The notes under the pieces: model-generated
What the model was told of the DNA's origin: nothing
The model's input: the letters and a program-made list of their open reading frames with translations, nothing else
The model's database searches: none
In this document: positions 18,939 to 55,437 of the stretch, piece by piece
Position numbering within the stretch: the stretch's first letter is position 1
How the letters are laid out: each line of letters starts with the position of its first letter
Program-made: the position numbers and the translations under genes
Source of the DNA: Inonotus obliquus
Lineage: Eukaryota > Basidiomycota > Agaricomycetes > Hymenochaetales > Hymenochaetaceae
Reading direction: 5' to 3'
Length of the DNA stretch: 64,000 bases
NCBI GenBank assembly: GCA_032164295.1
Contig: JAJHTX010000011.1
Location: 1,116,001 to 1,180,000, forward strand

Positions 18939-19562
18939 TTATCCCGCATCACTTATTCTTGCTTCTCCGGTACGTAGGCCCATACTCCTGAGGTAATCAT
19001 CATCGAGGATCTTCCGCATTCCTTTTAATACTTTATTGTGAGTTTCCTCGAGTTCCTGCATTAGTTGTCTATCATTTTCGGTATGCCCACTTTTCTTTCC
19101 TAAAGCTTGCTTCAATTCGTCACTTTGAACAAATTTGAGATGGTCATTGCAAATATTGTATTCTTTTTCAGCTTGTTCCTTAGTTTGTTTCAACGTGGAT
19201 TCTCGAGTTTCAATATACTTTATAATGTCTGCAAATTCATCTTCAGTCCCCCAGAACTTGTTGCTACGTGTCTTTCCTTTATTTTCCCGGGTGACTTCCT
19301 TGAGTTTTGTACATGAATCTAAGACTTCTCCTATTACAATGCGTACGGCATTCAGTTCGTGTTTCATCAGAATTAGATATTCCTCTGTATGCCCCCGAAG
19401 CTGCACAAAATCAATCCCTTTCGAGTCCTCCGTTGGGGTTCCTGGTCTTGATCCGGATGCATTCCGGGGTTTCTTTCCTTTGGGTATTAATGGTGACGCT
19501 GCCCTCTTCTTTGATTCTTCCACCTGTTGTGAATGTGCCATAGGATCTTTAGGGGAAGGCAT
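18939..19562 (-). CDS. Coiled-coil family protein, array copy A (207 aa)
   Basis: Single-exon ORF from an ATG at 19562. The family is not recognised. The N-terminal 50 residues are basic and disordered (KKPRNASGSRPGTPTEDSKG). The remaining 150 are heptad-rich, highly charged helix. Motifs shared with copies C and D are LKFVQSDELKQAL and a C-terminal LDDDYLRSMGL. There is no signal peptide or membrane segment. A TATA box lies 85 bases upstream at 19647-19653 in a promoter shared by all array copies. It is convergent with the parent large gene. Between 19394 and 19473 the DNA is exactly identical to copy C (28241-28320), while sequence on either side is diverged. This suggests gene conversion. 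Confidence 0.7.
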   Translation of the reverse strand: MPSPKDPMAHSQQVEESKKRAASPLIPKGKKPRNASGSRPGTPTEDSKGIDFVQLRGHTEEYLILMKHELNAVRIVIGEVLDSCTKLKEVTRENKGKTRSNKFWGTEDEFADIIKYIETRESTLKQTKEQAEKEYNICNDHLKFVQSDELKQALGKKSGHTENDRQLMQELEETHNKVLKGMRKILDDDYLRSMGLRTGEARISDAG

Positions 19563-19700
19563 TCAAGTTCAAGTTGCTGACGGTGACTCCCAATTGTAGC
19601 TTGCAAAATATTACAGTGGCATTGAGGTCGAGAACCAGGGGCGCATTTTATATTGTTACGTTGTCCTCCATGTCGAAGTTTGCTTTTCTTTTCAGCTTTG
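19563..19700 (-). promoter_or_regulatory. Conserved core promoter and 5' UTR of copy A
   Basis: Minus-strand TATAAAA at 19647-19653 is followed by GCGCCCCTGG and, near the start codon, GGGAGTCACCGTCAGCAA. The same order and spacing (about 72-90 bases from TATA to ATG) recurs at copies B, C, D and F. An insertion of about ten bases just before the ATG is specific to copy A. Confidence 0.65.
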
Positions 19701-19786
19701 TTCTTGAACGATAGTCTGATAGCAACTACGTGTGACTAATTGAGCAATGAAGTAATAAGTATGTTATTATTACTCATAACTTCGCC

Positions 19787-19838
19787 ACAAATTCGTTCGC
19801 TATTGCCAAAGTTAGTCTCAGGCTGATTGTGGCGTAAC
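19787..19838. promoter_or_regulatory. Conserved upstream inverted repeat (candidate operator)
   Basis: Arms CGCCACAA and TTGTGGCG lie about 35 bases apart, roughly 230 bases upstream of copy A. The same pair occurs at 23345-23387 (copy B), 28911-28952 (copy C) and, with altered arms, 30893-30937 (copy D). It may be bound by a dimeric regulator or form a cruciform. That role is inference. Confidence 0.4.
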
Positions 19839-20155
19839 TTTGAAGTTTGGATGGAGGCGAGGTGCAAAATGACCACAGGAAGGGTTGAATGAGTTCTGTA
19901 TCTGGTGATGTCGTTCTCCGTTGCAACAGTCACAGTCATTTGCGTTAGTGACGATAGTGTGACACTCCCCTGATGGGGGAAGTGAGTAAGTAAGTGAGTA
20001 TGCGGCGCCACCCTTACTACATTTGGAGACTGATCGGCGGTAGATTTTTCCCACGTTGGATCGTCCGCTCACTCGTCAGCTTCCGAGTCCACGTCCTTAA
20101 ACATGACCCTAGTTCTGGTGGTATGTCGACATTTCCAGCATCGCGGAACTACCTT

Positions 20156-21378
20156 AAATGAAGACGGGGATGCTGGGAAAAAGCGAAGAACCGAATGGAC
20201 TCTTGCGGACCTCATACTCTCTGGCGCGTTGGAAAGCGAAGCCGAATCCGCTCGCTTGGGCGGGAGCCTACGATTGGCTTCACAGCCGTTATTACCAACT
20301 CAAGCCAATTCTCAATCATATTCGCCCCCGTCACAAGGTTCTTCGCGTCTTCACGCAGAGTCGTTCCAGTCTCGTCACACATTTCATCCCAACTCTGGTC
20401 AACTCCAGACGAACCGTTCGCAAGATCAGCCTTATTAATCTCGTCAAACTGGCTCGAATCCAGCTGCGAATGCGACGTCTAAATTATATGATGTCACTAA
20501 ACGAAGATCGAAGAAGACTGGGTATCAGTCTTTAGTGATTGAGAAGAGGCTTCCAACGCCACCGGAAGACGAGAACGAAGAGCTTGAAGGAATGGAGATA
20601 CCAGAGGCATCCTCGACTATATCAAACGCGACGAGCTGCACACGTTCTGCTATTGACGACAGTGAAAGTGCGGAGGGAGGGCTGGTTGGAACTAGCAGAG
20701 CGGGAGCAGGGGATTATGGACTCGTAGAGGTGCCGTACAGACGGTCTTCTGAGAGGACCGGCCCCAGAGATGGTCTCCGCCAACAACTTGACTCGCATTC
20801 ACGTCCTTCGCAACCTTCCTCCTCACTGTCCTACTATCAAGTAGTGGCATCCCCTCCTGCGTCGCCGTCCTCAATCTCTACTGCTCGAGACAATTCATCT
20901 CGCCACCACTCTTCAAGGCACCAGAATCAATACGCGGAAGAGCGATCTTCACCTCGTCGACACGAGGAATACGAAATGGAGGTCGTCCCGGGGAGAGACA
21001 GGCGGTATGATGGGATCGATGGGCAACAGCAGCAGTGCTTGGCGAACGGGAGTCTCCCTACTCCGCCTGACTCCGAAAGCGAACGAGTAGGTGACAGTAA
21101 TATGCCCTCGCCTCATAGTGAAAGGGGTAGAGGTAGAGAGGAGAGAAAGCGTGATCGGGTGAAGGACGCGCAGAAGTATGAGGGTGAAAACGTACGCCAA
21201 CGCGATCGAGAGCGAAGGAGACGATCTTATTCACAACCTTCGCGTCATGAACCGGCTCTAGTTGTTGACGACCGCACTCCACCGAGAAGATTAAAGACAA
21301 AGCCGAAAGAACGTGGTTTGTCAAGAGATGGTGAACGGGATCGAGTTGCGTCGGAGCGACATACCTCAGATGTCGGCG
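20156..21378 (+). pseudogene. Truncated copy of the large gene's 3' half (array unit 2)
   Basis: Begins at the equivalent of parent position about 15500 without exon 1 or a promoter. It matches the parent to about 16976, then jumps to sequence equivalent to 18028 in the flank. Parent bases 15621-15810 are missing; the deletion ends coincide with two GATCGG repeats. The 190-bp loss and further substitutions break the frame (an early stop follows RSQDQPY). The 282-codon ORF at 20535-21383 is only the leftover open part. Not a functional gene. Confidence 0.85.
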
Positions 21379-22405
21379 CTTAGCGACTTAGCGAAACCGA
21401 CGACCTTAACGCTCACTAGCAACTTCAACTTCTTCAGGTACTCGAATTTGTTCGTACATGAAGTAATTAGTTGGTCCTACATAATTCGCCTCTGTTCTCT
21501 GTTTTCTTTTCTCTGTTCTCTTTGGCTTTGGCTTTGGCTTTGGCTTTGGCTTTGGATAACCGACAATACTATTCCAGTCTAAACTATGTTTATTTTGTGT
21601 GATCGAGTTCGGGGTTGCCACCGCTTCTCACGCTGGTGGCATTTAGCTTCACCGACCTACCTTGACCATCAAATACTATAAATACTAGTACTGGACTACC
21701 GGTGAACTCGCTGGTGTCTTTGTTCTCTGCTCTGTTCTGTTTTGTCACTGACATGACCAAATCGTGAAATAGTTTAGGGGTTGGTGACCACTGCTAGTGA
21801 CGAGTCGGAACTGCTCACGACACTCACATGGAAGCAAGCTCCCTGTCCTTGGATCCCATTGCCACCCGTGAAGCTCGAGAGGTATGTCTGCTTTTTGCAC
21901 TTGCATTTACTCGCTCGCTATTACCAGGATTCCACCAGTACTAGTACTGGCAGGAAGACTCGTAAGTTATAATTTATAATTTATGCTATCCTATTCAAAG
22001 GGGAGCAAATAATACAGCAAGGATACTTAAATAATAGTGGTAGGAATATCGGGCATATGCATATGGAGAGAAGAAATGGAAATAGAAGAGAGAACGAGAG
22101 ACGCTTGCGCCTTTCATGAGAGGAGAAGATGGTTTGCCGCCGTCAAGGGGCGTCTCGAGGTCCGAGTCAATCTGCAGCTGGGCCATTGGCCCTATTATAC
22201 AAACACGCTTGAGGTTACTCCAGCTTAACCTAGTGGGATGAAATAAAATGATGAAATGGAACGAGTATATGGGATTTGAAATGGATTTGGAGATGAAGCT
22301 GAACGGGATGAGGATCGTGGTAAGAAGCGATGTTGATATCCGCGGGGGATGTAACCTTCGCGGTGAAAAATTATCCCTTATGGTTCAATGCATCGTTTCT
22401 TGCTT
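21379..22405. repeat. Array flank, unit 2
   Basis: Copy of the intergenic segment 18028-18938. It contains the longest TTTGGC hexamer run of the window (21521-21555, nearly six units), the TAGTACTAGTACTGG stretch, and the conserved TATGCTATCCTATTCAAAGG block near 21983. Confidence 0.75.
21521..21555 (+). repeat. TTTGGC hexamer microsatellite
   Basis: Five full TTTGGC units plus a partial one. The corresponding sites have three units near 18180, a degraded run near 27050 and four complementary units at 61630-61653, so the run length varies between array copies. Confidence 0.9.
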
Positions 22406-23176
22406 TCAATTTATTTTTGCTAAAAATCTAGAGAGATAATCTTTATCAAAACACATCAGTAAATAATCACGTGCTTGTGTATAGATCTCCCTGTCCTTTT
22501 TGGCTGCTTCAACAAGGTTCAGGAAATAGTTGTACTCTTGTCTAACTTCCGTATCAATCCTGTCAAGTTCCTTGATGGCCTCTGTACTAATTTCGGATTG
22601 AAGCTTGCTAGTGATCTTCTCAATTTCATCCCAGTTCTTCTTCAGTCGTTGGCGCTTTGGCAACGAATCTTGTCCTCTATTAATCGCTTCCCTGAATTCT
22701 GTAGCTTGTCTTAGGAGGTTTCTTGTGTGACACATTTGTTCGAACAGTCTTTCTTTTATCTCGATTAGATAAACCGAAGTCAACCACTCAAGGTCTCCAA
22801 CCTGAGAAGGTGACTTGCGCAGTTCATCATCAGGATTGGGTTCATTTTTGATTGGTGGTCCCCTGCGAATATTTGAAGTCGAGCGTTGGACACTTCTTTC
22901 ATAATGACCTGGCCTGGAACGTCTCGATGGTTCGTTCCCTCGTGGTGCTCGCTGGACTTCTTTGCCGCCGGTTCTTCTATTCGGCTCACCGACTCTTTGC
23001 TTGAATGGCACTAGTGCTCCATCATCCTTAACACTAGCAACACTAGTACTATTATCCGAATCCGAATCAGAAACGTCATGGGCCCTGCCGCGGAGTGGTT
23101 TATGCCCTCCCTTCTCTGGTCCTCGTCCTCTTTTCCAACTCCCCAGCCCGCGTGGAGAATCTCTTCTGGAAGACAT
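22406..23176 (-). CDS. Coiled-coil family protein, array copy B (256 aa)
   Basis: Single-exon ORF from an ATG at 23176, in the conserved promoter context (TATA at 23248-23254). The N-terminal 120 residues are basic, Gly/Arg/Ser-rich and disordered, with a DSDSDNST acidic patch also seen in copies C and F. The C-terminal 130 residues are charged helix. It ends FDKDYLSRFL, the copy-B version of the family C-terminal motif, but lacks the FVQS/KLKQAL motif of A, C and D. Coding sequence hardly aligns with neighbours although the upstream 300 bases are nearly identical to those of copy C. No known domain was recognised and the function is unknown. Confidence 0.68.
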   Translation of the reverse strand: MSSRRDSPRGLGSWKRGRGPEKGGHKPLRGRAHDVSDSDSDNSTSVASVKDDGALVPFKQRVGEPNRRTGGKEVQRAPRGNEPSRRSRPGHYERSVQRSTSNIRRGPPIKNEPNPDDELRKSPSQVGDLEWLTSVYLIEIKERLFEQMCHTRNLLRQATEFREAINRGQDSLPKRQRLKKNWDEIEKITSKLQSEISTEAIKELDRIDTEVRQEYNYFLNLVEAAKKDREIYTQARDYLLMCFDKDYLSRFLAKIN

Positions 23177-23474
23177 TGCTGACGGTGACTCCCAATTGCA
23201 ACTTGCAAGATATTATAGCGGCATTGAAGTCGAGGACCAGGGGCACATTTTATACTGTTACTTTGCTCTCCAAGTCCAGCTTTGCATTTCTTTCCACCTT
23301 TGATAGTGACAGTCTGACAAGCGTGACTGATTGAGTAACCATTACGCCACAAATTCGTTCGCTATTGCCAAAGTTAGTCTGATTGTGGCGTCACTTTGAC
23401 GTAGACCACAGAATGGGTTCTGTATTTGGTGATGTCGGTCTCCTGTGCAATAGCCGTTTGCATTGGTGACGATA
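23177..23474 (-). promoter_or_regulatory. Conserved promoter region of copy B
   Basis: TATA at 23248-23254, the 5' UTR motif GGGAGTCACCGTCAGCAATG, and the CGCCACAA/TTGTGGCG inverted repeat at 23345-23387. It is almost identical to the region upstream of copy C apart from one indel. The MITE at 23475 splits it from its distal part (24137 onward). Confidence 0.65.
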
Positions 23475-24134
23475 CTGTTGCAATCTGTACGGGTGCAACC
23501 AAGGGGTCTGCGTTACAGCGACGAAACAGGCAACCGGTCCGTGTTTTCGCGTTACTTGACTGGTTACATGCAACCAAGCTACCCACAAATAGGTGCAAGA
23601 ATGTTACATACATTGTTAGATTTACTTGAGATTCAGATCTTATCATCAGAACATAGAAACTCTTCACTATTTTCTATTCTAATAGATGTTCTTTCATCCT
23701 AAATATTGAGACACAAAATCAATGTAAATTCTTGTCATTGAGAATATCTTCTAATTGGTCTTTCAGTCGACTCACACCCCTAAACTTGGCGCTTTAGACA
23801 GTAGTTCAAATGCTCAAGAATGCATACAGAAGTAACCCCCACTTCCTTCAGCAGCTCTTTGTACGTACCATAACTCATTCCTACTTCCAGTGAGGAAGAT
23901 CTCTTTGCATATGATGAGCATGGCAAGGCCTGGGTGAAGGTAATTTGCCTGGACTAATTGATGACCAGAAGGATAATTGTTTTCGATTTTTCCCCATTTT
24001 TTCAAGTACAAGTAATAATATACATTGTAACGCCTAATATAGGAAGCAACCTGATACCCGCGTTACACGTTACCCTATGCAACGCAACTTTCTCTGCGTT
24101 ACCGTTACAGTTGCACCCGTACAGATCGCGACAG
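23475..24134. mobile_element. MITE, 660 bp, inserted in the promoter region of copy B
   Basis: Inverted termini are CTGTTGCAATCTGTACGGG and its near-complement, both continuing with TGCAAC (22 of 25 bases match). TA flanks both ends (23473-23474 and 24135-24136). The uninserted sequence GTGACGATAGTGTGACACTC survives at 19951-19970 upstream of copy A, proving the insertion and its boundaries. There is no ORF of note. Probably a Tc1/mariner-type non-autonomous element. Confidence 0.88.
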
Positions 24135-24136
24135 TA

Positions 24137-24690
24137 GTGTGACACTCTCCTGATGGGGAAGAGTATGCGGCGCCACTCTTACTACATTTGGAGACTGATC
24201 GGCGGTGAATATTTCCCACGCTGAATCGTACCCCGGTCCACTTGATCCTAGTTCTGGTGGCATGTCGACACTTTCAGCTTCGCAGACCTACCTCGAACAT
24301 AGTATACTGGACGACCAGTGGACTCGCTGAGTCCTTGGTCACCGTACGCGTTTCTACCCTCTGTTTCAAAAGAAGCTGGTTGACGGTCAGTGACAAACTG
24401 ATCTCTACACCAAGCTCCTTGGATTCTGTCTCGCGTGACACTCAAGAGGTTCGGCTACTTTCTGCATATCGAATGACGGTGACTCACTGACTCGAGCAAA
24501 CTCGTAATTTATGCTATCCTGTTCACAGGGGAGCTAATAAATGCACCAAGGCTACGAACGTTGGGCCTATGGAGGGAATACATAGAAGAGAGACCGAATG
24601 ACGCCTGCGTCCTATACAGGAAGATGCACAATTTTTATATCCCGGGTTTAATCTAGCGGCACGAAAGAAAACGATGGAACGGGAACGAGT
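24137..24690. repeat. Distal promoter of copy B joined to an orphan coiled-coil 3' flank
   Basis: 24137-24300 continues the copy B upstream region. 24480-24690 matches the 3' flank of copy D (29350-29583), including a version of TATGCTATCCTATTCA and GGAACGGGAACGAGTG, but no coiled-coil ORF lies beside it. At 24691 it is fused directly to large-gene sequence (parent 15521). A coiled-coil gene was therefore lost here by recombination. Confidence 0.7.
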
Positions 24691-26271
24691 GAAAAAGCGA
24701 AGAACCGACGGGACTCTTGCGGAACTCATACTTTCTGGCGCGTTGGAAAGCGAAGCCGAATCCGCTCGCTTGAACGGGAGTTTACGATCGGCTTCACATC
24801 CGTTATTACCATCTCAAGCCAATTCTCAATCATATTCGCCCCCGTCACAAGGTTCTTCGCGTCCTCGCGCAGAGTCGTTCCAGTCTCGTCACACATTGCA
24901 TCCCAACTCTGGTCAGTCCCAGACGAACCGTTCGCAAGATCAACCTTATTTATCTCGTCAAACTGCGAATGCAACGTCTAAATTATATGTTGACACTGAA
25001 CGAAGATCGAAGAAGACTGGGTATCAGTCTTTAACGATTGAGAAGCACTGGAAGATGAGAACGAAGAGCTTGAAGGGAGGGAGATTCTAGAGGCATCCTC
25101 GACTATTTCAAACGCGACGAGCTGCACACGTTCTCCTATTGACGACAGTGAAAGTGTGGAGGGAGGGCTGGTTGGAACTAGCAGAGCGGGAGCAGGGGAT
25201 TATGGACTCGTAGAGGTGCCGTACAGACGGTCTTTCTGAGAGGACTGGCCCCAGAGATGGTCTCCGCCAACAACTTGACTCGTATTCACGTCCTTCGCAA
25301 CCCTCCTCCTCACAGTCCTACTATCAAGTAGTGGCATCTCCTCCTGCGTCGCCGTCCTCACCCTCTACTTCTCGAGACAATTCATCTCGACACCACTCTT
25401 CAAGGCACCGGAATCAATACGCGGAAGAGCGATCTTTGCCTCGTCACGAGGAACACGAAACTGAGGTCGTCCCAGGGAGAGACGGGCGGTATGATGGGAT
25501 CGATGGGCAACAGCAGCAGTGCTTGACGAACGGGAGTCTCCCTACTCCGCCTGACAGTAATATGCCCTCGCCTCGTAGTGAAAGGGGTAGAGGTAGAGAG
25601 GAGAGAAAGCGTGATCGGGTGAAGGACGCACAGAAGTATGAGGGTGAGAACGTACGCCAACACGATCGAGAGCGAAGGAGACGATCCTATTCACAACCTT
25701 CGCGTCATTAACCGGCTCTAACTGTTGGCGACCGCGCTCCACCGAGAAGATCAAAGACAAAGCCGAATGAATGTGGTTCGTCAAGAGATCGTGAACGGGA
25801 TTGAGTTGCGTCGGAGCGACATACCTCAGACGTTGGCGATTTATTGAAGAACCTCTACGGCCCGATCACAAACTCAATCCTGCTCGTTCCAGTGGAGAAT
25901 GCGATCGAGGAGAGCGTCGACAGTCAAGATTAGAGAAAATCTCAACAGGCCAGAGATGAAGAGGAACGGGAGCTCTTCTACCGAGGAACATGAACGATGT
26001 ACAGATGGTAATAGCCCATGCATTAAAAGAGTGCCTGTACCAGCAATAGAGGACGTTTTATCGACGCTTCCGCGAGAGTCACGAATGAGCGGAAGTAAGT
26101 TGGGTCAGGCCAATCCGCAGCCGAATAGTCGAACAGGTGGTCTTTCATCTAGCAGGGCCAAGGGCTCTGTGCTGGTACTGGACCTTCTCAACGAGGTGGA
26201 AAGGAATGCGATCGTGTGAAGTGAAGTGGAAGTTTTGGAAGGACGGAGCCAAATCCGTTTTGCATGTGTGA
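24691..26271 (+). pseudogene. Broken copy of the large gene's 3' half (array unit 3)
   Basis: Collinear with parent 15521-17396, with the same 190-bp GATCGG-flanked deletion as the unit 2 fragment and several private frameshifts and stops (for example near 25080, 25233 and 25709). The parent 3' UTR follows it. The breaks rule out a product equivalent to the parent. Short leftover ORFs within it are not genes. Confidence 0.87.
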
Positions 26272-27809
26272 GATGATTCTGGGTTCATGAGGCTATGATC
26301 GAAGTCAGTCGAACCTCGTCTTATTTTCCCCTTCCTTTGTCGAGCTTTTTATCCTTGTCGGACTCTTTACTGGTTCTCACCTTACATTCGCACACAGCCT
26401 TCGCTCTTCTTGATCTCGAAGACTATTCTTACCCATTGATCGTCTTTTCTTATATCGTTCTTCATTATTCTTGGACAACGTCCCTTTCTCCGTTTCCATT
26501 TCTATTTCCACTTCCACTCATCACTTGATTTTGTGATCTCGACATTCTCAGGGTTAGATTGGTCATCTACATCATTATTAGGGAGGTTTTTGAACGGCTG
26601 TACACGTTTTCCACATTCTTACATCTTAATTTTCCATCCACATTTCCCGACATTCATATTCTTCACCACTTCTTTCTCTTGCTAGTTCGACTTCACACGC
26701 ACATCTTGGTATCGTATCATTTGACCACTCTTCACTTTCTTTTTCATGCTCAAGAAACAAGCAGACCCTTTTTTTCGGCTCTCGTATTTGCATGATTTCG
26801 GTTTGAACCTTTGAACTATTACACTGGTAGCCGTTCGTTCTTTGCTTTGGTCATGGTCAATCGTGATCATCATGGCTTAGCGAAACCGACAACCTTAACG
26901 CTCACTAGCAACTTCAGCTTCTTCAGGTACTCGAATCTGTGTGTACAATTAGTTGTTTCTACATTTCTACATAATTCGCCTCTATTCCCTATTCTCTGTT
27001 CTCTGTTCTCTGATCGCTGTTCTCTGATCTCTGATCTCTTTTTTCTTTGGCTTGGCTTTGGCGTTGGATTTTAGCTTCACCGACCTACCTTGGCCATCGT
27101 ATACTATAAATACTAGTACTGGACTACCGGTGAACTCGATGGTGTCTTTTTTCTCTGCTCTGTTCTGTTTGGTCACTGACATGACCTAATCGTGAAATAG
27201 CTTGGCGGTTGGTGACCACTGCTAGTGACACGATTCGGAACTGTTCACGGCAGTCACATGGCACCAAGCTCCTTGTCCTTGGAACCGAGAGGTATGGCTG
27301 CATCTTGTACTTCCATTGACTCGCTCGCTATTACCAGGATTCCACTAGCACTGGTACTGGCAGGAAGACTCGTAAGTTATAAGTTATAATTTATGCTATC
27401 CTATTCAAAGGGGAGCAAATAAATACAGCAAGGATACTTAAATAAGAGAGAGTGGCAGGAATATCGGGAATATGCATATGGAGAGAAGAAATGGAAATAG
27501 AAGAGAAAAAGAAAAAGAAAAGACGCTTGCGCCTTTCATGAGAGGAGAAGGTGGTTTGCCGCCGTCAAGGGGCGTCTCGAGGTCCGAGTCAATCTGCAGC
27601 TGGGCCATTGGCCCTATTTTACAAACACGCTTGAGGTTACTCCAGCTTAACCTAGTGGGATGAAATAAAATGATGAAATGGAACGAGTGAATGGGATTTG
27701 AAATGGATTTGGAGATGAAGCTGAACGGGATGGGGATGGTGGTAAGAAACGATGTTGATATCCGTGGTTGTAATCTTCGCAATGAAAGACTCCCAACAGG
27801 TTGAATCTC
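26272..27809. repeat. Array flank, unit 3
   Basis: Near-complete copy of 17394-18938: large-gene 3' UTR, pyrimidine-rich DNA, simple repeats of TCTGTTC and TGATCTC type near 27000-27050, the TAGTACTGG stretch, and the TATGCTATCCTATTCAAAGG block near 27393. Confidence 0.8.
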
Positions 27810-28754
27810 TCATTCTTCCTCCTTTATTTGTATGCCACGTTTTCTGAGGAATTTATCATCGAGCATGCCCCGCATATCTGCAATTGTTTCATTGTGAATT
27901 CCCTCGAGTCTACTCTTCAAGTTTTTGGTAAGCCCACTTTCGTTTATTAAAGCTTGCTTCAATTTCCTACTTTGAACAAATTTGAGTTTATTCTCAAAAT
28001 CAGAGCATTCATCTGAAGCGAGTTCCTTGAATCGTTCATACTCGCCTTGTTGAAATTTTACATCACCTATCATTTGTGAAAGTAGATGTTCAGTATCCCA
28101 CGTCTTGTTGGTCTGTGTCATTCCTTTTATTTTCTTGAAAGATTCATTGAATGCAATACACGAATTCATGGCTGATCCTGAAACAATGATTGTCGTTTTC
28201 ACTTGGCTTATTAGCAGGAGTAGGTATCTCTCTGTCTCCTCCCGAAGCTGCACAAAATCAATCCCTTTCGAGTCCTCCGTTGGGGTTCCTGGTCTTGATC
28301 CGGATGCATTCCGGGGTTTCCTTTCGAGTATTCTTGGTGAAAATGTCCTTTCCTTTGCCCTTGAATTCAAGCCAGGTCCGACTCTTACATGAGGTCGTCC
28401 GTCGTCGTGGTGTGGCTTCTTCTTTGAAGTCGAGCCTGGGACAGGTCCGACTCTTACATGAGGTCGCCCGTTGTCACGGTGTGGTCCCGGTGATTCTCCG
28501 TTGATATTACTAGTAGTTGAATCCAAGTCATGTATTCCGCCTCCCAAGTTGGATGACATGAATGGACTTGGTGATCTTCCCCTACCATCTGAATCCGAAC
28601 CAGCAACGTCATCCACACCGGGTTGATGCCGTCCTTGTTCTCCTCCTCGTCTCTGTCCCTGCCAGTACCAACTCTGTTGTGAATGATTCTGACCCCGGGC
28701 CTGACCTCTTGAAAGATTAGGATGTATTGGTTTCTGACGTCTACTTTTAGTCAT
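27810..28754 (-). CDS. Coiled-coil family protein, array copy C (314 aa)
   Basis: Single-exon ORF from an ATG at 28754 with the conserved promoter (TATA at 28827-28833). The N-terminal 150 residues are disordered and Gly/His/Arg-rich. They include a small internal duplication, GRPHVRVGP, occurring twice about 22 residues apart. The middle KPRNASGSRPGTPTEDSKG is identical in DNA to copy A. The C-terminal half is helical, with LKFVQSRKLKQAL and the terminal LDDKFLRKRGI, ending in Glu residues as copy D does. No known domain. Function is unknown; the helical half suggests oligomerisation. Confidence 0.7.
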   Translation of the reverse strand: MTKSRRQKPIHPNLSRGQARGQNHSQQSWYWQGQRRGGEQGRHQPGVDDVAGSDSDGRGRSPSPFMSSNLGGGIHDLDSTTSNINGESPGPHRDNGRPHVRVGPVPGSTSKKKPHHDDGRPHVRVGPGLNSRAKERTFSPRILERKPRNASGSRPGTPTEDSKGIDFVQLREETERYLLLLISQVKTTIIVSGSAMNSCIAFNESFKKIKGMTQTNKTWDTEHLLSQMIGDVKFQQGEYERFKELASDECSDFENKLKFVQSRKLKQALINESGLTKNLKSRLEGIHNETIADMRGMLDDKFLRKRGIQIKEEE

Positions 28755-29150
28755 TGCTGGCGGTGACTCCCAATTGCAACTTGCAAGATATTATAGCGGC
28801 ATTGAAGTCGAGGACCAGGGGCGCATTTTATACTGTGACATAGCTCTCCAAGTCACCTTTGATAGTGACAGTCTGACAAGCGTGACTGATTGAGTAACCA
28901 TTACGCCACAAATTCGTTCGCTATTGCCAAAGTTAGTCTGATTGTGGCGTCACTTTGACGTAGACCACAGAATGGGTTGAATGAGTTCCGTATTTGGTGA
29001 GATCGGTCTCCTTTGCAACAGCCGTTTGCATTGGTGACGATGGTGTGACACTCCCCTGATGGGGAAGTGAGTATGCGGCACTCTTACTACATTTGGAGAC
29101 TGATCGACAGTAAATATTTCCCACGCTGAATCGTGCTCGTCACACCCTAG
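28755..29150 (-). promoter_or_regulatory. Conserved promoter region of copy C
   Basis: TATA at 28827-28833, the CGCCACAA/TTGTGGCG inverted repeat at 28911-28952, and the intact (MITE-free) stretch around 29035 corresponding to the insertion site in unit 2. The CCCCTGATGGGG palindrome lies near 29053. Confidence 0.6.
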
Positions 29151-29696
29151 TTCTGTCGACACTTTCAGCTTCGCAGACCTACCCCGAACATAGTATACTG
29201 GACGATTAGTGGACTCGCCGAGTCGTTGGTCACCGTACGCGTTTCTCTCCTCTGTTTCGAAAGAAGCTGGGTGATCTCCACACCAAGCTCCTTGGATTCT
29301 GTCTCGCGCGACGCTCAAGAGGTTCGGCTACTTTCTGCGTTATCGAATGACGATCACTGACTCGAGCAAAACTCGTGGTTTATGCTATCCTATTCAAAGG
29401 GGAGCAAATAAATACACCAAGGCTACTTAACTAATAAAGAATGCTAAGAACATCGGGCCTATGGAGGGAAGAAATAGAAGAGAAAACGAAGGACGCCTGC
29501 GTCCTACACAGGAAGATGCACAACTTTAATAGCCCGGGTTCAACCTAGAGGCACGAAAGAAAACGATGGAACGGGAACGAGTGAATAAGGATATCTTGCC
29601 TTGAAATGGACTTGAAGCTAAAGTGAAGCTGAGCACGTATATCAACATCCGTGGTTGTAAACTCCGCAGTGAGATACTCCCACCAGGTTGCATCTC
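29151..29696. repeat. 3' flank of copy D and array junction
   Basis: Holds the shared TATGCTATCCTATTCAAAGG block (near 29382) and GGAACGGGAACGAGTG (29568-29583). In other units this last motif is the point of fusion to large-gene sequence. No ORF. Confidence 0.65.
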
Positions 29697-30692
29697 TCAT
29701 TCTTCCTCCCGTATTTCTCTGCCTATGCCAAGACGTTCGAGGAAATTGGGATCATCTTGGAAGTTTTTCATTAAGTATTTCAATACGTTGCTGTGTAATT
29801 CTTCAAGGTCCAACACCAGTTGTTTATCTTCGCTGGTACGACTTTTTCGTCGTAAAGCATTCTGCAGTTTATCACTTCTAACAAAGTCGAGGTCTTTTTG
29901 GCAACGATTGAATTGTTTTCCAGCCTCTGTCTGCACTCCTTCCCACACGGTTTTCTGGTCTCCAAGCACATCTAGAAATCCTTCCATTTTCCCTCCGACA
30001 TCCCAAATCCTGTTGGCATATGAGCAATCATCGGAGTTCTTCCATTTCTTTATCTCTTCTTTTATCCCATTTCTGAATTGATTACAGTGTTCTGTGAATG
30101 ATCCAGCAGTTGATTTTGTGTGACTCAATTCTTGTATTAGCACTTGTAGCCATTCCTTTGTCTTCATACGAATATCCTCTTCCTCCCCTGAGTCAGTTGG
30201 AACTGTTGTGGGTGTTTGGGGCCTCTTTGACTTACTTCGACATGGGTTTCTAATGGGGTCTCTTGGTTGATGCTGTCCTTGTTCCATTTGTGGGATCCGT
30301 CGGGGTGCTGGTAGTCTATTATCTGAATACGAGCCATGTTCTCCCGCAGACCGGGCATGGTTATGCTGCTGTTCTCGTCCGAGTTGTCTATGGTCTGGCG
30401 CCGTACGCATGTGTTGTACTGATGATTGTACTAGTGGACGTTCCCGGCCTAACCCGACATCTCCACGTACTTGTACATACTCAGGACGCCGGGCATTTAT
30501 ACTGCCATGACGCAGGTGTGGTCCTTGTCCTCCATCGATTAGCGTGTAGTATTCTATTCGCGGATGTCCGTCTTCATCTTGTTGCTGTCGTTGTTGTCGT
30601 TGCTGTTGTCGTCGTCGTTCCTGTCGATGCGTTTCATGCTGCTGACTCGTTGGCATACGGTAATATCCAGATCTTTCATCTCCATAAGACAT
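29697..30692 (-). CDS. Coiled-coil family protein, array copy D (331 aa)
   Basis: Single-exon ORF from an ATG at 30692, outermost member of the direct array. The N-terminal 170 residues are disordered and Arg/Gln/His-rich, with a QQQRQQRQQQ run from CAA/CGA-type triplets. The C-terminal 160 residues are helical, with LDFVRSDKLQNAL and a terminal DDPNFLERLGI. It ends in REEE like copy C. The 5' UTR has a weaker TATA (near 30780-30786) and a diverged UTR. It is followed upstream by the single-copy GT25 gene, so the array ends here. Confidence 0.7.
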   Translation of the reverse strand: MSYGDERSGYYRMPTSQQHETHRQERRRQQQRQQRQQQDEDGHPRIEYYTLIDGGQGPHLRHGSINARRPEYVQVRGDVGLGRERPLVQSSVQHMRTAPDHRQLGREQQHNHARSAGEHGSYSDNRLPAPRRIPQMEQGQHQPRDPIRNPCRSKSKRPQTPTTVPTDSGEEEDIRMKTKEWLQVLIQELSHTKSTAGSFTEHCNQFRNGIKEEIKKWKNSDDCSYANRIWDVGGKMEGFLDVLGDQKTVWEGVQTEAGKQFNRCQKDLDFVRSDKLQNALRRKSRTSEDKQLVLDLEELHSNVLKYLMKNFQDDPNFLERLGIGREIREEE

Positions 30693-31050
30693 TTCTGATG
30701 GTGATTTCCAATTGCACCTTGAAAAATATTTTAGCCCAAGAGTTGCGTTAACATCGAGAAATCAGGCCGGGGGACGCACTTTATATTGTTACGATGTCAT
30801 CCAAGTCGAAGTTTGCCTTTCTTTTTAGCTTTGCTCTTGAACTAGCAACCAAGTGACAGTCTGATAGCGTGACTGATTGAGCAATACAATTACGCCACAT
30901 ACTCGTTCGCTATTTTCAAAGTAGTCTGATGGTGGCGTAACTTTGAAATTTGGATGGAAATGAGGTGCAAACTGACCACAAAATGAGTTGAATGAGTTCT
31001 GTGACTGGTGACGTTGTTCTCCTTTTGTTAAACAACTAAGAAAACCACTC
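30693..31050 (-). promoter_or_regulatory. Promoter region of copy D, more diverged
   Basis: Recognisable as the shared promoter but with more substitutions than B or C. The inverted-repeat arms at 30893-30937 are changed on both sides (CGCCACAT and GGTGGCG), so part of the pairing is retained. Confidence 0.5.
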
Positions 31051-31265
31051 ACCTATTGGACATACTTCTGCCCACTTCAATAGGCCGACTCTCGAGTCAG
31101 CCACGGTCGCAAAGTGTAAGGTAAGGAACGCTCTGGGTCTGACTACAATTGGCAATGATCGACGATCTACGAAACGATCATACTTTCTACATTTGGAAGG
31201 ACCGTCGACATCCTCCACCTTTCCTGTTCGTGTTCGTTGCCTTACCGTACTGTAATGCTGTAGCC

Positions 31266-34413: not shown

Positions 34414-34421
34414 CGTGGAAT

Positions 34422-42105: not shown

Positions 42106-42756
42106 TGAGTAGTAAGCTCTATTCATGAGGGAAAAGAAAGCGTCCGAGATCGATACGCTACGGATTATGTGTCGAAGTTATTGTGTTCCGTAATCGATAA
42201 TACATGGATAGATGTTGTAACTTATCGGGTGTCCGGTTGTCGCGTCGGGTATCTGGGAGGGTACTCGAAAAATTGGTAGGGATTATTGAACTTTCGAGTT
42301 TACCGTATGTCTAAGAGAAGCGTAATCGATGCAACAATGAAAATTAGGTGCTGCTTCGATAAGTCCATCTTGATATCCATATCCTAGAAGGAATCCCGAA
42401 AACAGAGATTTCAACAGAGCATCGGAACAGAGTACGAGTGAGGGCGGCGCATGGGGCATGGATGATCTGAGATGAGAAGAAACGGGGATTGTTAGCGATA
42501 CCTTGTTTTCTTGCGAGTTTCGTGGTTAGGTTGCAGTTGTTGCGGTCGTGGTAGGCGTAATTGATTCATTGTATGATCAGATGATCAAATGATTGTCACG
42601 AGGCGGGGCCTAGAGAGTTTTATTGGAATATGATGAGCGTCACCGTCTCCAGCGTATTCCACGGGTATAAAAAGCCCACAGCCTACTCTTCGCTAACACC
42701 TAACACGCGTGTCCCTTCTTCCCTCCTTCCCCTCTTCCTTTTTTCCTTTTACGTTC
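42106..42756. other. Intergenic, promoter of the small secreted-protein gene
   Basis: Ends in a TATAAAA-like element (GGGTATAAAAAGCCC, 42663-42677) and a pyrimidine-rich tract just before the ATG at 42757, a standard fungal promoter arrangement. No other feature. Confidence 0.55.
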
Positions 42757-43550: not shown

Positions 43551-43747
43551 TAGATACGAATGTGACAGTGACACTACGTGACGAGTAACTGATATCGTTT
43601 GAGTTGGGTGATTTGAAATTCCCGATCGATTCAATAAGTACTGCGCTCATACTAATTAGATAGGCGCCCCCCTCTTCTCCTTGTCAAGTTCGTCTACTTA
43701 CTGCCATCACTACACTATCAGCGTTGACGACGACGTTGGAAAGGATC

Positions 43748-45844: not shown

Positions 45845-46878
45845 TGTTGAAACCCGAGGATGAGAGGGATAAGAAGGGGGTGAGAAAGGGAAGGTTCGAT
45901 GACTACAAGCATGACGACTACAACGGATGGACCTTTGGACGTGGACTCAGAACCCGGACTCGGGTATCACATCATGAATTCGAATCTTCGTCACTAAAAC
46001 TGGAAACCGGAATTGAACGATACCCACAGGAATAAGAACGTGCTCATCTGTTTACTGTATGTACGATGCTATCTGTATCCTGTATCCTGAATGATTCTCT
46101 CATATCTCATCCACCATTTTCACCTACTCTCTTACTCTCTCAACCTGTATGTATATGTGTTTGTACTTATGTATGTAATCCCAGGACAGTCCTCAACGAG
46201 AAATGCTAGCCACCTAACTGTTAGCTACCAATCACACACAGAACACCCAAACCTCGAGCTAACTTTGCGGGTGCAACGCCCTTGTTTGCTTTGCTTGTAT
46301 GGCGTATATCACATGATTCTGATTCTGCAATGACTTTGCAACAAGCAAGCAACAGCCTGAGAGTCACAGTACAAATTGACGAGATACCTCCCCGGCACCT
46401 GTAATTGGTCTTTCTTTCCCACGGATGCTCTTGTACTCTCATAAACGGATCTCTTCGTCTTTCTCACCGGAAAAATCTGTACCTCTATTGCCTTTTGCCT
46501 TTGAAGACCTTTTTGGAATGGCTAGTACTCTTGGATAATTTTGCTATGCTACTCCCCGTTTCAAATCTGACGCAAGGTGCGATGCGCGTTACGCGTAACA
46601 GCACCCAACCCAGCAAGCGCAACTTTGCACCAGTACCAGCGTTACCGTTATGGTCGCGCCATGTCAGATTGCGACAATACACGGTATAAATGCAAAGGGC
46701 CAGTCACGGTGTCACTGGTGTGGCGAACGAGGAATCGAGAAGAGCAATCTTGCTTCACGAATGTGATTGTGCCACAGTGCCAAGGAGCAAAGGAGCAAAC
46801 TTGAAACTTGGAGGTGAAACAGTGTAAAAATATATCGTCAGCTCACTAACTTGCAGCCTCAGGTCTACAACTCACAAA
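45845..46878. other. Intergenic with a decayed MITE-like stretch
   Basis: 46580-46680 resembles the ends of the MITE at 23475-24134 (shared GCGTTACCGTTA, GCAACTTT and ATTGCGACA motifs) but boundaries are lost. A TATAAATGCAAAGG motif at 46685-46698, upstream of coiled-coil copy E, recalls the family TATA element. The remainder is unremarkable. Confidence 0.45.
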
Positions 46879-47652
46879 TTGCGAAGTGCAAGTTTCAACG
46901 ATGGATCCAAGGGGCCAGGACGTTCGAGTTCTCAAGTATATGTACCAGGACGCAATAAACAAACCAACAGTGCTAGAGCCGGTGAAGGAGGGCACCAAGC
47001 CGATAGAGGTACAAGTCGAAGGCCCGCTTCCCCAAGTGGCCAACAAACTCGGGCTAAGTGTCACATTCATGTTGCCAATTTATTCTCGCAATGCGTACTA
47101 GAAGGGTTGGTGCGCACTTTCAAAGATACACCTTATGGAGTCATACAGCCTAAAGCATGGGGTCTTCAATCGGCTATAGAAGAGACATTCTCCATGCTTG
47201 AAAAAGAAGAAGATGCTTTTAATATTTCGGAAACGTTGCAAGGAATGAGGCCTAAAACTGATGGATGCGCAATCCATTATGGGTATTTGGAGTTAGAAAA
47301 ACGAAATTTAACGTTCTTGATAAGTGATATTCAAAAAACAGAAGAATGTTGCAAGAACACTGTAGAGCTTCTTGAAGAAGAAGCCAAAGCGTTTTCACCT
47401 AGTGATGGAGAAGAGGAGAAAAGACGTGACAAACTTCGGCGCCTAAGCGCGCAATGGCAGAAGGTTCAAGAAAATGTCAACAAGCAAATAAATCTTTTCA
47501 CAAGACAACTTGCATCTGTTGAAAGTATGATAAAAGATGCTAATATTTCAGAAAAGCGGGTAGGCGTCTCATTAATGAATAAGCAGGTCGTGAAGGATGT
47601 CAAGACGATTTACAATGATATTGGGAGGTGGATAAGGGGGAATATTCGCTGA
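46879..47652 (+). CDS. Dispersed coiled-coil family member, copy E (up to 257 aa)
   Basis: An open frame of 257 codons has the family layout: a Gly/Arg/Ser-rich disordered N-terminus (GRSSSQVYVPGRNKQTNSAR), then about 180 residues of charged helix (LEKEEDAFNISETLQGM, EEEKRRDKLRRLSAQWQKV). The frame has no ATG near its 5' end (the first codon is TTG). The nearest ATG (46901) is in another frame, and the first in-frame ATG is deep in the helical part (47194). It may need an unseen upstream exon, or be decaying. It lacks the conserved flanks and the C-terminal FLRxLGI motif. Family assignment rests on layout only. Confidence 0.45.
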   Translation: MRSASFNDGSKGPGRSSSQVYVPGRNKQTNSARAGEGGHQADRGTSRRPASPSGQQTRAKCHIHVANLFSQCVLEGLVRTFKDTPYGVIQPKAWGLQSAIEETFSMLEKEEDAFNISETLQGMRPKTDGCAIHYGYLELEKRNLTFLISDIQKTEECCKNTVELLEEEAKAFSPSDGEEEKRRDKLRRLSAQWQKVQENVNKQINLFTRQLASVESMIKDANISEKRVGVSLMNKQVVKDVKTIYNDIGRWIRGNIR

Positions 47653-48115
47653 TTTAGCGAAGTATCGGGAAACTTGGAGAGTTTGCTTGCACGTATTTAT
47701 ATTTGTATATACATATTTATATACATATAGTTTTCTTTGGTTCCCCGCGCGGTCTTCTTTCACCCTTACTCTCACGTCGATAATACCTCGTAACTTTTCT
47801 CAGGAAGGGAAAAAATGGTAAATATGACGAGACGGTGCCAATTCGTGTAGGTGGCTAGCGGCCCGCGGACCTAGAAGGAGGTGTTCATGTTAAAAATAGA
47901 CACGATCACGGTCCATTGTCTCCGGGGACACCTGGCGAAATATGGTCTTCTATCTGAGTATCTTGTGTCCTGCTGGACCTCTACGAAGTATCTCCTCGGT
48001 GTTGGTGATGTTTGTAAATGTCACATGAGCATCAACTGGTTTCATAAAATGTCGGTGCTGTAGTCAATGCGCACGGTCAGTTGCGACTCGATTGGTCTTC
48101 TCACTCGTGGATAAC
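47653..48115. other. Intergenic, nothing recognised
   Basis: About 460 bases containing an ATTTATATTTG-type AT-rich tract near 47695 and, toward 48115, the GH20 promoter. No ORF is supported. Confidence 0.5.
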
Positions 48116-50538: not shown

Positions 50539-50739
50539 AAATTTGGGAAGGGCTGGAAGAGAATGAGAAGAGGTATGCCAAGTTATGGCGCCGGGAATAA
50601 GTTCATCTTATGAGGGTGTCTCGGTGATTGACAAGATGATATGCAATATATACAACAGATAACCTTCATCTACTCTATTAATATTGTCTGTCTATCAGTG
50701 AGTGAGAGAGATGACGGATTATTCATTGCGCCGACTCAG

Positions 50740-51252
50740 TGATGCCCAGTCTTCCTCAATCTTCGTTTGGTGTCAACATACTATTTAGACGTTGCATTCG
50801 CAATTTGACGAGATAAATAAGGTTGATCTTGCGAACGGTTCGTCTGAAGCTGACCAGAGGTGGGATGCAAGGTGTGACGAGACTGGAACGACTCTGCGTG
50901 AGGACGCGAAGAACCTTGTGACGGGGGTGAATATGATCGAGAATTGGCCTGAGATGGTAATAACGGCTGTGAGGCCGATCGAAGAGGAGATGTATGCGCC
51001 TCTTCCATCTGTTTCGAGGCACCTTGTACGACTACAATCTCACGCACATTCCCTATCCATGCACGATATGATATGTTGTCCACTCCGAGTTGGTCACCTT
51101 CACCTTCTCGTCCACCTCCCGCTCCTTACCCTTACCTCCTTCAATTGATATCATTGCACGATCGTAAGTTCCCGCACAAGCGAGCGGATTCGGCTTCGCT
51201 TTCCAACGCGCCAGAGAGTATGAGGTCAGCAAATTCGGTTCTTCGCTTTTTC
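50740..51252 (-). pseudogene. Large-gene fragment (parent 15521-16054)
   Basis: Minus-strand copy of the parent coding region from the acidic/GKKRRTEW part to GRRSKKTG-equivalent sequence. It retains most of the 190-bp segment deleted in the two direct copies (a GATCGTGCAATGATATCA stretch is present) but has its own small deletions and frame breaks. No start and no promoter. Confidence 0.8.
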
Positions 51253-51839
51253 ACTCGTTCCCGTTCCATCGCTTTCTTTCGTGCCGCTAGCTTAAACCCG
51301 GGCTTTTAAAGTTGTGCATCTTCCTGTATAGGACGCAGGCGTCATTCGTTTTCTCTTCTACTTCTTCTCTCCATAGGCCGGAAGTTCCTAGCACTCTTTA
51401 TTAGTAGCCTTGGTGTATTTATTTGCTCCCCTATGAATAGGATATCATAAATTACGAGTTTTCCTCAAGTCAGTGAGTCACCGTCATTCGATAACGCAGA
51501 AAGTAGCCAACCTTTTGAGCGTCACGCGAGACAGAACCCAAGGAGCTTGTGTAGAGATCAGTTTGTCACTCGCCGCCACCCAGCTTCTTTCGAAACAGAG
51601 GAAAGAAACGCGTATGGTGACCAACGACTCGGCGAGTCCACTAATCGTCCAGTATACTATGTTTCAACCGTATTCAAGGTAGGTCTGCGAAGCTGAAAGT
51701 GTCGACATGCCACCAGATACCAGTGAGCTGGACGATTCAACGTGGGAAATGTCTATCGCCGATCAGTCTCCAAATGTAGTGTAGTAAGAGTACTAGTGGC
51801 GCCGCCCGAATAATAGTATAGTACATGATATGATATAAG
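51253..51839 (-). repeat. Copy D-type 3' flank and distal promoter of copy F
   Basis: Minus-strand equivalent of 24200-24690 and 29150-29583, with an altered form of the TATCCTATTCA block near 51440. Near 51790-51839 it reaches the distal promoter segment in which the 650-bp MITE is inserted. Confidence 0.65.
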
Positions 51840-52489
51840 GTAGGGGAAGTATAAACTCGACTAGGTGTGACGCGCGTCATGCGACCCTGACTTGGCCTGA
51901 CTTGCCTCATCTGGTGACTCTGGACCCTTTCTTAACTGCAACTTCCACACAACACAAACTCGATATTGGCTCTCATAGATCTCTTCTAATAAAAATTACA
52001 AGCAGATGTATGTTTTTAAAATTAAAAAATATGGACCCCTGACCTTCCGATTAAGGGATGAACCTTTTTTGTGTCAAATGGCTCAGAATTCATTTTCCAG
52101 CATTCTGGTAAGCTTTTCGTAAATTTCGAAAATTTCGACCGCAGAATTTTTGCCGCTCTTGGCAGGCACAAGATGACAAATATGGTCCAAATATAGTAAT
52201 TCACTTATGACTCATATCTATTACTAATATTTGACTAATACATATTTATAACACATATCCTGATGGCTGAGGGAGGTTCAGGAGAGCTGGCTATTGGTGA
52301 AACAAGCTTTGTTTTGATGCTTTGTTGAAGTACAAATGGGATTCTGGCTGCTCTTCTGCTGGCTACCACTGTCCTGAAATCCGACCTTGAGATTTTCGCC
52401 TCAGGGTCCTTCCAAATCGGGTAAGCTCGGGGTGCTCAGGGTCATCAGTCACATTGTGACACCTAGTCGAGTTTATACTTCCCCTACCT
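51840..52489. mobile_element. MITE, 650 bp, perfect 31-bp inverted termini, TA duplication
   Basis: Both ends start AGGTAGGGGAAGTATAAACT and continue CGACTAGGTGT without mismatch, in inverted orientation. TA flanks each side (51838-51839, 52490-52491). The equivalent uninserted site (CATACTCACTTCCC, minus-strand reading of 19977-20001 and 29058-29075) lacks it. No transposase ORF. Perfect termini indicate a fairly recent insertion. Confidence 0.88.
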
Positions 52490-52491
52490 TA

Positions 52492-52845
52492 CTCACTTCC
52501 CCCATCAGGAGTGTCACACCATCGTCACCAATGCAAACGGCTGTTGCAAAAGGAGACTGACATCACCAAATACAGAACTCATTCAACCCATTCTGTGGTC
52601 ATTTTGCACCTCATTTCCATCCATACTTCAAAGTGACGCCACAATCAGACTGGATTTGGCGTAATGGTAATATACTGTATTGCTCAATCAGTCACGCTTG
52701 TCAGACTGTCACTATCGAGCGAAGGTGAAAAGAAATGCAAACTTGGACTTGGAGAGCAATGTAACAGTATAAAATGCGCCCCTCGTCCTCAACTTCAATG
52801 CCGCTATAATATTTTGCAAGCTACAAAAGGGAGTCACAGTCAGCA
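52492..52845 (+). promoter_or_regulatory. Conserved promoter region of copy F
   Basis: TATAAAA at 52768-52774, then GCGCCCCTCG and GGGAGTCACAGTCAGCA directly before the ATG at 52846, matching copies B and C. The palindrome arms near 52635-52665 are rearranged (GACGCCACAATC and TTTGGCGTAATGG). Confidence 0.65.
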
Positions 52846-53591
52846 ATGTCTTCAGGTCAGAACCGGAATAAGGAACGAGGACGAGAAATGCATCCATCAG
52901 ACTATGAAGTAGTACCCGGTATCGCGGACTCAAAGGCCACTGGGGCCGCTCCAGAAGTCCCGCATCGCCCGGCTAAAGGTATGTAATTCATGGCAAATAT
53001 GCCTGGGGCAGAGATGCATCTGACTCGGATTCAGCTAGTAGTAGGGGAGGATCACCAAAATCGACGGAACCAGGAGCTCGAGGACGTGTCCAACAAGACT
53101 TGGGTTCAGGGATTTCGCCCAGTCGCCACGTGACACCTGAGGAATCTCATGAGGTGCTTTGGAAAAAGACAAAGGATCAGCTAGATCAACTAAGATTAAA
53201 TCTGCTTCGGACAAAATTGATTGCAGGACACCTTAAAAAACGCTGTCTTGATGAACCCAGTATGAGCGAATTCAAACGTGACGTCAAAAACAATTGTGCC
53301 ATCTTGAACTTGAAGATATGGTCCCGTCTAAAGGTGATAAGGAACGACTTTGAGAAGGAACTGGAAAGAATTGAAGTCGAAGCTGGAATACAATGCGAAC
53401 ATTACACACATGAATACAAGAATATTGGCTCTCTAAAAACGGTGAGTGGCGAATCTATGCAGAAACTCGAGGAGATTAGCATGGAAGTAGAGGAAGTCTT
53501 AAAGAGTGACTTCGGATATGATCGTGAATTTCTTAGAAAGCTCGGCATAGAAGTTGGACCTTGGACAGTGACATTAAGAGGTGCAACCTGA
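52846..53591 (+). CDS. Coiled-coil family protein, copy F (236 aa, inverted unit)
   Basis: The ATG at 52846 sits exactly where the conserved 5' UTR predicts. Exon 1 (52846-52978) and exon 2 (53014-53591) are joined by a 35-nt GTATGT...AG intron. This gives KDASDSDSASS, matching the DVSDSDSD of copy B. Without splicing, a stop follows at once. The N-terminal 95 residues are disordered, then helix (LWKKTKDQLDQLRLNLLRTK) to the family C-terminal motif GYDREFLRKLGIEVG. The intron is unusually short, so the 35 bases could instead be a frame-breaking insertion. Upstream and 3' flanks match copies B and C closely although the protein does not. Confidence 0.6.
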
Positions 53592-54161: not shown

Positions 54162-54163
54162 TA

Positions 54164-55397: not shown

Positions 55398-55408
55398 TAC
55401 CATGCGAG

Positions 55409-55419: not shown

Positions 55420-55437
55420 CTTCTCTCTTTTACCACC

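Follow-up and report, generated by a model that had tools for sequence, protein, structure and literature searches.

A cluster of variable coiled-coil genes

Analysis of a 64-kb window of contig 11 of the Inonotus obliquus genome (the whole stretch of DNA under study, to which all positions refer) revealed five genes for coiled-coil proteins, here called A, B, C, D, and F, whose reading frames differ far more than the DNA on either side of them. The five open reading frames (ORFs) sit where the first-pass annotation of the window had put them. A to D are single ORFs, and F is assembled through one predicted intron of 56 nucleotides (nt) at positions 52979-53034 (GTATGT...TTCAG), with which it fits the family. 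The four uninterrupted frames and the one spliced frame range in length from 207 to 331 codons. The architecture previously described as common to the family was found in all five proteins: the N-terminal half is basic (net charge, +4 to +13), and the C-terminal half is neutral to acidic (0 to -6). Genome-wide searches, which covered 36.07 Mb in 30 contigs, found no family copies outside the present cluster.

Reading frames have diverged further than their flanks

It had been claimed that divergence is greater in the ORFs than in the flanks, the reverse of what is expected of neutral tandem duplicates. This holds in all 10 gene pairs. In 50-nt windows, the median identity per pair was 0.74 to 0.96 in the flanks versus 0.42 to 0.66 in the ORFs, and flank windows were the more similar in every pair (one-sided Mann-Whitney test, p = 3.5e-6 to 9.2e-3). 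The flanks were trimmed to the stretches aligned by blastn, which biases this test in their favor. Less-trimmed alignments of whole units, obtained for eight of the 10 pairs, agreed with this profile; for the two D pairs among them, the likeness was limited to the inner flank. The annotation had described nearly identical promoters of B and C, a collapse of similarity in the coding region, and a recovery in the 3' flank, and the B-C unit alignment confirmed this course. Most of its flank windows were 87 to 100% identical, identity falling near the outer end and over the edges of the ORF; its ORF windows were 32 to 62% identical.

The likeness ends at the start codon. Identity over the 60 nt upstream of the ATG was 0.87 to 0.98 in the six pairs without D and 0.58 to 0.63 in the four pairs with D (mean of all 10 pairs, 0.78); for A, these 60 nt stop 12 nt short of the ATG, where the homology of A ends. 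Over the first 60 nt downstream of the ATG, mean identity was 0.48, and shuffled sequence gave 0.46. This boundary is sharp in the six pairs without D. For comparison, the two copies of a direct duplication elsewhere in the window (positions 1093-3515 and 5903-8314) kept an identity of 0.85 to 0.99 along their length in 150-nt windows. This duplicate is 2.4 kb long and 93.5% identical overall, and its frames may encode a flavin adenine dinucleotide (FAD) monooxygenase.

The upstream regions share several short sequences. A TATAAA motif lies at an equivalent position in all five promoters. The leader sequence GGGAGTCACCGTCAGCAA has four close matches in the genome (0 or 1 mismatch), which are the leaders of A, B, C, and F; the other 12 genome matches have 3 mismatches each, and a backward control gave 9. 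No exact match to the leader pattern was present in viral and prokaryote contigs, where fungal DNA is not expected. A genome search for the exact pattern of an inverted repeat, ACGCCACA...TGTGGCG with a spacer of 20 to 48 nt, found it at no sites other than those upstream of A, B, and C (control matches, 0). An upstream frame of three codons, ATG-Pro-Leu-stop, is kept about 50 nt 5' of the ATG (60 nt in A) in four of the five leaders, that of D being the exception; the two changes in the copy of A are synonymous.

Protein relationships within the family

The statement that the proteins align only at short motifs needs correction. In local alignments scored against 500 shuffles, A, C, and D were homologous throughout the helical half, with z scores of 36.5, 21.0, and 13.7 among their C-terminal halves. 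The C-terminal half of F matched that of D (z = 9.3) and, weakly, those of C (2.9) and A (2.1). In the same test, the C-terminal half of B matched none of the other four members (z = -0.2 to 1.4); for its N-terminal half, the scores were 2.0 (C) and 2.5 (F). With phmmer, C to B gave 6.1 bits and B to C gave -4.2 bits. Four features place B in the family: the slot it fills, its flanking DNA, the protein architecture, and a C-terminal DKDYLSRFLA similar to the motif of the other members. The two motifs previously proposed stood in part. C and D carry an exact FVxSxKLxxAL, A has E in place of K, and B and F lack the motif. C and F match the C-terminal D-x-x-FLR-x-x-GI pattern exactly, and A, D, and B have altered versions of it.

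In the predicted structure of A, the C-terminal half is helical, with a predicted local distance difference test score (pLDDT) of at least 90 at 90 of the 207 residues, and the N-terminal half scores below 50. The model of B was poor (pLDDT, 56.6; predicted template modeling score, 0.28) and therefore gives no verdict on whether B shares the fold. Likeness to the BAR fold, a dimeric three-helix crescent, is suggestive at most.

Homology searches returned no relatives. No Pfam family matched A, B, C, D, or the second exon of F at an E value of 0.001, and at an E value of 10 there were only weak, unrelated matches (best E value, 0.021). The best match among solved structures searched by sequence had an E value of 0.6. 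A five-sequence alignment used as the query against a protein database gave 6576 word-sharing candidates, none at an E value of 0.001, and A alone gave 56 candidates, none at an E value of 1; because candidates must have 5-residue words in common with the query, relatives that evolve fast may escape this search, and the database includes Hymenochaetales proteins. No description of the family was found in the titles and opening lines of the abstracts of the papers listed, with subscription papers and preprints outside the coverage.

Flanks and reading frames have conflicting genealogies

Quartets of A, B, C, and F were analyzed by a distance method on gap-free columns with 1000 bootstraps. D was excluded on account of its different type of 3' flank. 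The 5' flank gave the grouping AF|BC in 916 of 1000 bootstraps (informative sites, 6 versus 1 and 0), as did the 3' flank in 1000 of 1000 (28 versus 4 and 3). The ORFs, in contrast, gave AC|BF in 1000 of 1000 (42 versus 11 and 9); this signal is the similarity between A and C, and B and F are near saturation. No single tree fits both flanks and ORFs, which indicates that they have been re-paired and that their history is reticulate. A and C also share a block (about residues 33 to 56 of A) with nearly no synonymous difference, in ORFs that have otherwise diverged, as exchange would predict. The flanks of B and C differ by just 0.045 to 0.073, while their C-terminal halves cannot be aligned.

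A fragment of a neighboring gene, P, was copied with the cassettes. The quartet of P fragments was not decisive (653, 310, and 37 of 1000). The fragment in the C unit is nearest to P itself (0.075), while the flanks of C are nearest to those of B, which is a further sign of a mosaic history. As judged from the aligned DNA, the conflicting quartets show ORF variants to have been moved among flanks by unequal exchange or gene conversion.

The copied unit and its inverted, permuted copy

The cassette flanks belong to a larger copied segment of about 4.5 kb that carries the fragment of P. On the plus strand, a unit consists of the 3' part of P with downstream DNA, the 3' flank, the ORF (on the minus strand), the 5' flank, and the next P fragment. 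A, B, C, and F occupy one equivalent slot, and D occupies a second slot beside C (Table 1). A D-type 3' flank also occurs without a gene at about 24230-24697 and about 51250-51730. No further copies of P were found elsewhere in the genome. The 5' flank of B contains an element of about 660 bp (23473-24136) that is bounded by inverted repeats of about 27 bp at its termini (at most 2 mismatches).

Table 1. Positions of the family members, their flanks, and associated features in the window
Feature	Position	Strand	Remarks
Gene A	18939..19562	-	207-amino-acid coiled-coil ORF; shortest N-terminal half of the family
Gene B	22406..23176	-	256 amino acids; flanks nearly those of C; C-terminal half without alignment to C
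Gene C	27810..28754	-	314 amino acids; near-identical block shared with A
Gene D	29697..30692	-	331 amino acids; second slot of C unit; 3' flank of different type
Frame E	46828..47652	+	Probable sixth member, diverged; stop-to-stop open frame of 274 codons
Gene F	52846..53591	+	229 amino acids after splicing of the predicted intron
5' flank (promoter) of A	19563..20155	-	
5' flank of B	23177..23478	-	87.5% identical to C across 312 columns of alignment; three inner windows at 95-100%
5' flank of C	28755..29134	-	
5' flank of D	30693..31027	-	
5' flank of F	52488..52845	+	
3' flank of A	18344..18938	-	
3' flank of B	21816..22405	-	
3' flank of C	27288..27809	-	
3' flank of D	29135..29696	-	Of another type than those of A, B, C, and F
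3' flank of F	53592..54162	+	
Inverted repeat upstream of A	19783..19835	.	ACGCCACA...TGTGGCG
Inverted repeat upstream of B	23344..23391	.	ACGCCACA...TGTGGCG
Inverted repeat upstream of C	28903..28950	.	ACGCCACA...TGTGGCG
Neighboring gene P	14340..17393	+	Large open exon, 1017 codons from stop to stop; 3' part copied with the cassettes
P fragment heading B unit	20156..21601	+	
P fragment heading C unit	24691..27012	+	
P fragment of inverted F unit	61695..63678	-	Begins at P position 16056
P fragment, opposite end of inverted F unit	50740..51252	-	Ends at P position 16054

The F unit is inverted. Read on the minus strand, it runs from P position 16056 (window position 63678) to the end of P and continues through the 3' flank, F, the 5' flank, and a D-type flank to P position 16054 (window position 50740). 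Both P positions are ends of blastn matches and hold by eye within a few bases. The two ends of the unit are thus adjacent in the donor P, and its internal order is permuted, as described for circle-mediated duplication. A random linear piece would not be expected to end where it starts, while a circle from a tandem array would. The pieces of the F unit total 4948 bases, compared with periods of 4472 (A) and 4498 (B, including its insert of about 0.66 kb), so the unit equals one period in content and not in exact length. This arrangement suggests that the F unit was reinserted, inverted, as a circular copy. Human duplications read as circle-mediated show a permuted order of segments at the new site (PMC7188851, where cattle and yeast cases are also cited). 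The F unit resembles them in its permutation; unlike those cases, it comprises a whole tandem-repeat period with a gene cassette and is inverted near its source. The break point of the permutation (window 16040-16060) falls within a short inverted repeat, AAGACT...AGTCTT.

Two inserts interrupt the F unit. The first, of 707 bp (51781-52487), carries an element of about 660 bp beside the F promoter (about 51835-52492), whose terminal inverted repeats reach 37 bp (at most 2 mismatches). The second, of 7284 bp, contains a Tc1-like transposase frame and a reverse transcriptase frame. In the 3' flank of F, positions 54159-55402 hold a Tc1-like element with Pfam matches to transposase and inverted repeats of about 34 bp (at most 2 mismatches), and positions 55402-61235, which follow it, hold frames ending in reverse transcriptase (RVT_1).

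A probable sixth member

Frame E was omitted from the first-pass annotation and is, from its alignments, probably a sixth family member. Its promoter aligned with those of F (z = 9.7), D (5.2), B (4.9), and A (3.6) and showed no match to that of C (0.5). Its translation aligned with D (5.4), C (4.6), and A (3.7) and showed no match to B (1.0) or F (0.0). Against the family profile, hhalign gave a P value of 0.004, yet a probability of just 8.4%. The 3' flank of E resembles none of those of the five members. The conserved start site lacks an ATG, and the first in-frame ATG is at position 47194; E may be decayed or may have an unseen 5' exon. Together with the larger copied unit, the tree conflict, and the permuted, inverted unit, this probable member is an addition to what had been noted before.

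Coding evidence and substitution rates

A codon model was trained on six neighboring ORFs. In A, B, C, and D, though not in F, the coding frame scored highest of the six frames; z scores against base shuffles were 2.3 to 5.0. Between A and C, all four indels in the ORFs are multiples of 3, compared with 25 of 82 in the flanks (twelve flank comparisons, which are not independent).

For A and C, the Nei-Gojobori method gave 0.465 nonsynonymous substitutions per site (dN) and 0.295 synonymous substitutions per site (dS), based on 198 codons; the bootstrap fraction at or below zero was 0.011, and a Fisher test gave p = 0.031. The flank divergence (K) of this pair was 0.19 on both sides, which means that nonsynonymous sites have accumulated over twice as much change as the adjacent DNA. 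Support for the excess of dN over dS in A-C is moderate. In the remaining nine pairs, dS in pairwise alignments ran from 0.99 to saturation at a flank K of 0.08 to 0.57, and these pairs are too diverged for a dN/dS test. In two of them, homology is sure: dS was about 1.0 in both A-D and C-D, versus K values for the 5' and 3' flanks of 0.24 and 0.41 (A-D) and 0.35 and 0.48 (C-D).

Comparison with known systems

The wtf drivers are multi-pass membrane proteins and use two transcription starts to make a long antidote and a short poison isoform; the usual cutoff for 19-residue hydropathy is 1.6. No membrane helix was found in the five proteins, whose highest 19-residue hydropathy values were 0.13 to 1.54, only C (a stretch at residue 178) coming near the cutoff. 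Hydropathy, used here without a signal-peptide predictor, also revealed no strongly hydrophobic N terminus in the five. PY motifs (L/P-P-x-Y) are located in the N-terminal tail of wtf proteins (PMC13160552); none of the five proteins has one. Membership in wtf was rejected because the proteins are not multi-pass membrane proteins and lack PY motifs. The wtf genes of Schizosaccharomyces pombe are similar to the present family in their fast evolution, in exchange between copies that includes promoters, and in variable copy number (PMC6526906, PMC13160552). Exchange among paralogues is apparent here from the conflict of flank and ORF trees and from the near-identical A/C block. Unlike wtf, the present family forms one cluster, and its flanks are nearly identical up to the ATG while the entire ORF diverges.

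The hypervariable HET-domain genes of Neurospora are multiallelic, with long-diverged haplogroups that were read as balancing selection (PMC10197012); haplogroups of this kind would explain ORFs that are older than their flanks. No HET, NACHT/NB-ARC, or HeLo Pfam match was found in A to D and the second exon of F, and membership in the HET/NLR/HeLo families was rejected. In basidiomycete idiomorphs and multiallelic mating-type genes, unlike coding sequences lie within common flanks. The present locus resembles them in its dissimilar ORFs between shared flanks. Mating-type idiomorphs have one variant per haplotype, whereas several stand here side by side; a mating-type identity was rejected, as no homeodomain or pheromone-receptor Pfam match was present in the same sequences. 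In venom phospholipase A2 and conotoxin genes, the noncoding parts are more alike than the coding parts, and dS is expected to agree with noncoding divergence. The noncoding parts are the more alike here, too; unlike in venom genes, dS exceeds flank divergence in A-D and C-D, and the flank and ORF trees conflict.

A candidate recognition or conflict locus

The evolutionary reading of the first-pass annotation was upheld and is extended by the tree conflict, by the excess of dN over dS in A-C, and by the frame-keeping indels of that pair. With slightly better than even confidence, we read the cluster as a lineage-restricted family of intracellular coiled-coil proteins that would have been selected for mutual difference, that is, as a recognition or conflict locus. 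In such families, selection for difference goes with whole-ORF exchange and with shared control regions that stay intact, and a recognition or conflict function is therefore likely. Nonself recognition and poison-antidote conflict, taken jointly, are favored at just over an even chance over defense against parasites, plain fast divergence, and a relic.

The variation may first have been held as old alleles of a locus with one or few copies, or as old paralogues, while free recombination in the flanks would have kept these alike. Exchange between unlike haplotypes could then have placed variants in tandem, and one unit may have left as a circle and been reinserted upside down. The helical C-terminal half would dimerize or bind a partner with variant specificity, and the basic disordered tail might bind an acidic surface, such as a membrane, nucleic acid, or a partner. 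Wherever fusing or mating nuclei, or spores, differ in their variants, the mismatch would carry a cost. Tentatively, and on the doubtful side, the genes may represent an unrecorded basidiomycete class: orphan helical, basic-tailed genes for nonself recognition or spore killing, with cassette exchange of whole ORFs between conserved flanks and local spread as circles.

Several observations weigh against selection for difference in functional genes. The coding frame of F is not the best of the six, all members score low with the codon model (-0.011 to 0.078, D being below zero), and five of the six training ORFs (0.118 to 0.185) outscore all five members. When the shared block is left out, the A-C signal weakens to a dN of 0.562 and a dS of 0.374 (bootstrap, 0.041; Fisher, 0.081), and the excess of dN over dS comes from this one pair of 10. 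The dS values of pairs with B mean little because its C-terminal half cannot be aligned, and the contrast in pairs with D is weak because the D flanks are themselves much diverged (3' K, 0.41 to 0.57). Every comparison was made within one genome. The lack of the conserved start codon in E suggests that some members may be decaying.

Within the favored reading, the genes might be poison-antidote spore killers and suppressors, each variant a driver or a rescuer, so that only new specificities would spread. The pattern recalls the nonallelic gene conversion of wtf genes, which includes promoters, and their variable copy number (PMC6526906), as well as the recombination that makes new wtf poison-antidote pairs (PMC13160552). 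Mobile tandem cassettes would suit selfish spread. The lack of a PY motif and of a multi-pass membrane protein speaks against this sub-case, which we consider possible but rather improbable.

An arms race with parasites, in which the proteins would bind, or act as decoys for, proteins of mycoviruses, transposons, or competitors, appears unlikely. The excess of dN over dS in A-C and the extreme divergence are typical of arms races, and transposon frames are located within the cluster; against this, no known Pfam domain was found, and an arms race makes no specific prediction of the tree conflict. Accelerated divergence after tandem duplication without exchange, as in venom phospholipases, would make the flanks a measure of true age and the ORFs fast evolving. 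The A-C pair, with a dS of 0.30 near the flank K of 0.19 and a higher dN, agrees with such a course. It is nevertheless quite improbable, as the flank and ORF quartets are opposite and strongly supported, dS in A-D and C-D lies well over flank K, and B and C combine unalignable C-terminal halves with slightly diverged flanks. A relic, in which nonfunctional ORFs are open by chance and flank likeness reflects gene conversion in a repeat array, would fit the missing start of E, the low codon scores with F not top of six, and the inserted elements that interrupt the units but is very unlikely given the four uninterrupted frames and the spliced one, the in-frame indels of A-C, the best reading of A, B, C, and D in the coding frame, and the homology of C-terminal halves at a dS near 1.

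Read as a recognition or conflict family by its genome footprint, the compact cluster is a testable candidate; to our knowledge, few of the genes that cause somatic incompatibility or spore killing in mushrooms and bracket fungi have been identified. Its near-invariant flanks can be used as bait for alleles from other strains. The locus also provides a natural case in which the history of ORFs differs from that of the surrounding sequence and in which a gene unit seems to have moved in circular form.

A glycosyltransferase-25 gene lies at positions 31155-32768. Its best five database matches (48 to 54% identity) are from Sanghuangporus (two species), Fomitiporia, Phellopilus, and Coniferiporia, all members of the Hymenochaetaceae in the order Hymenochaetales.

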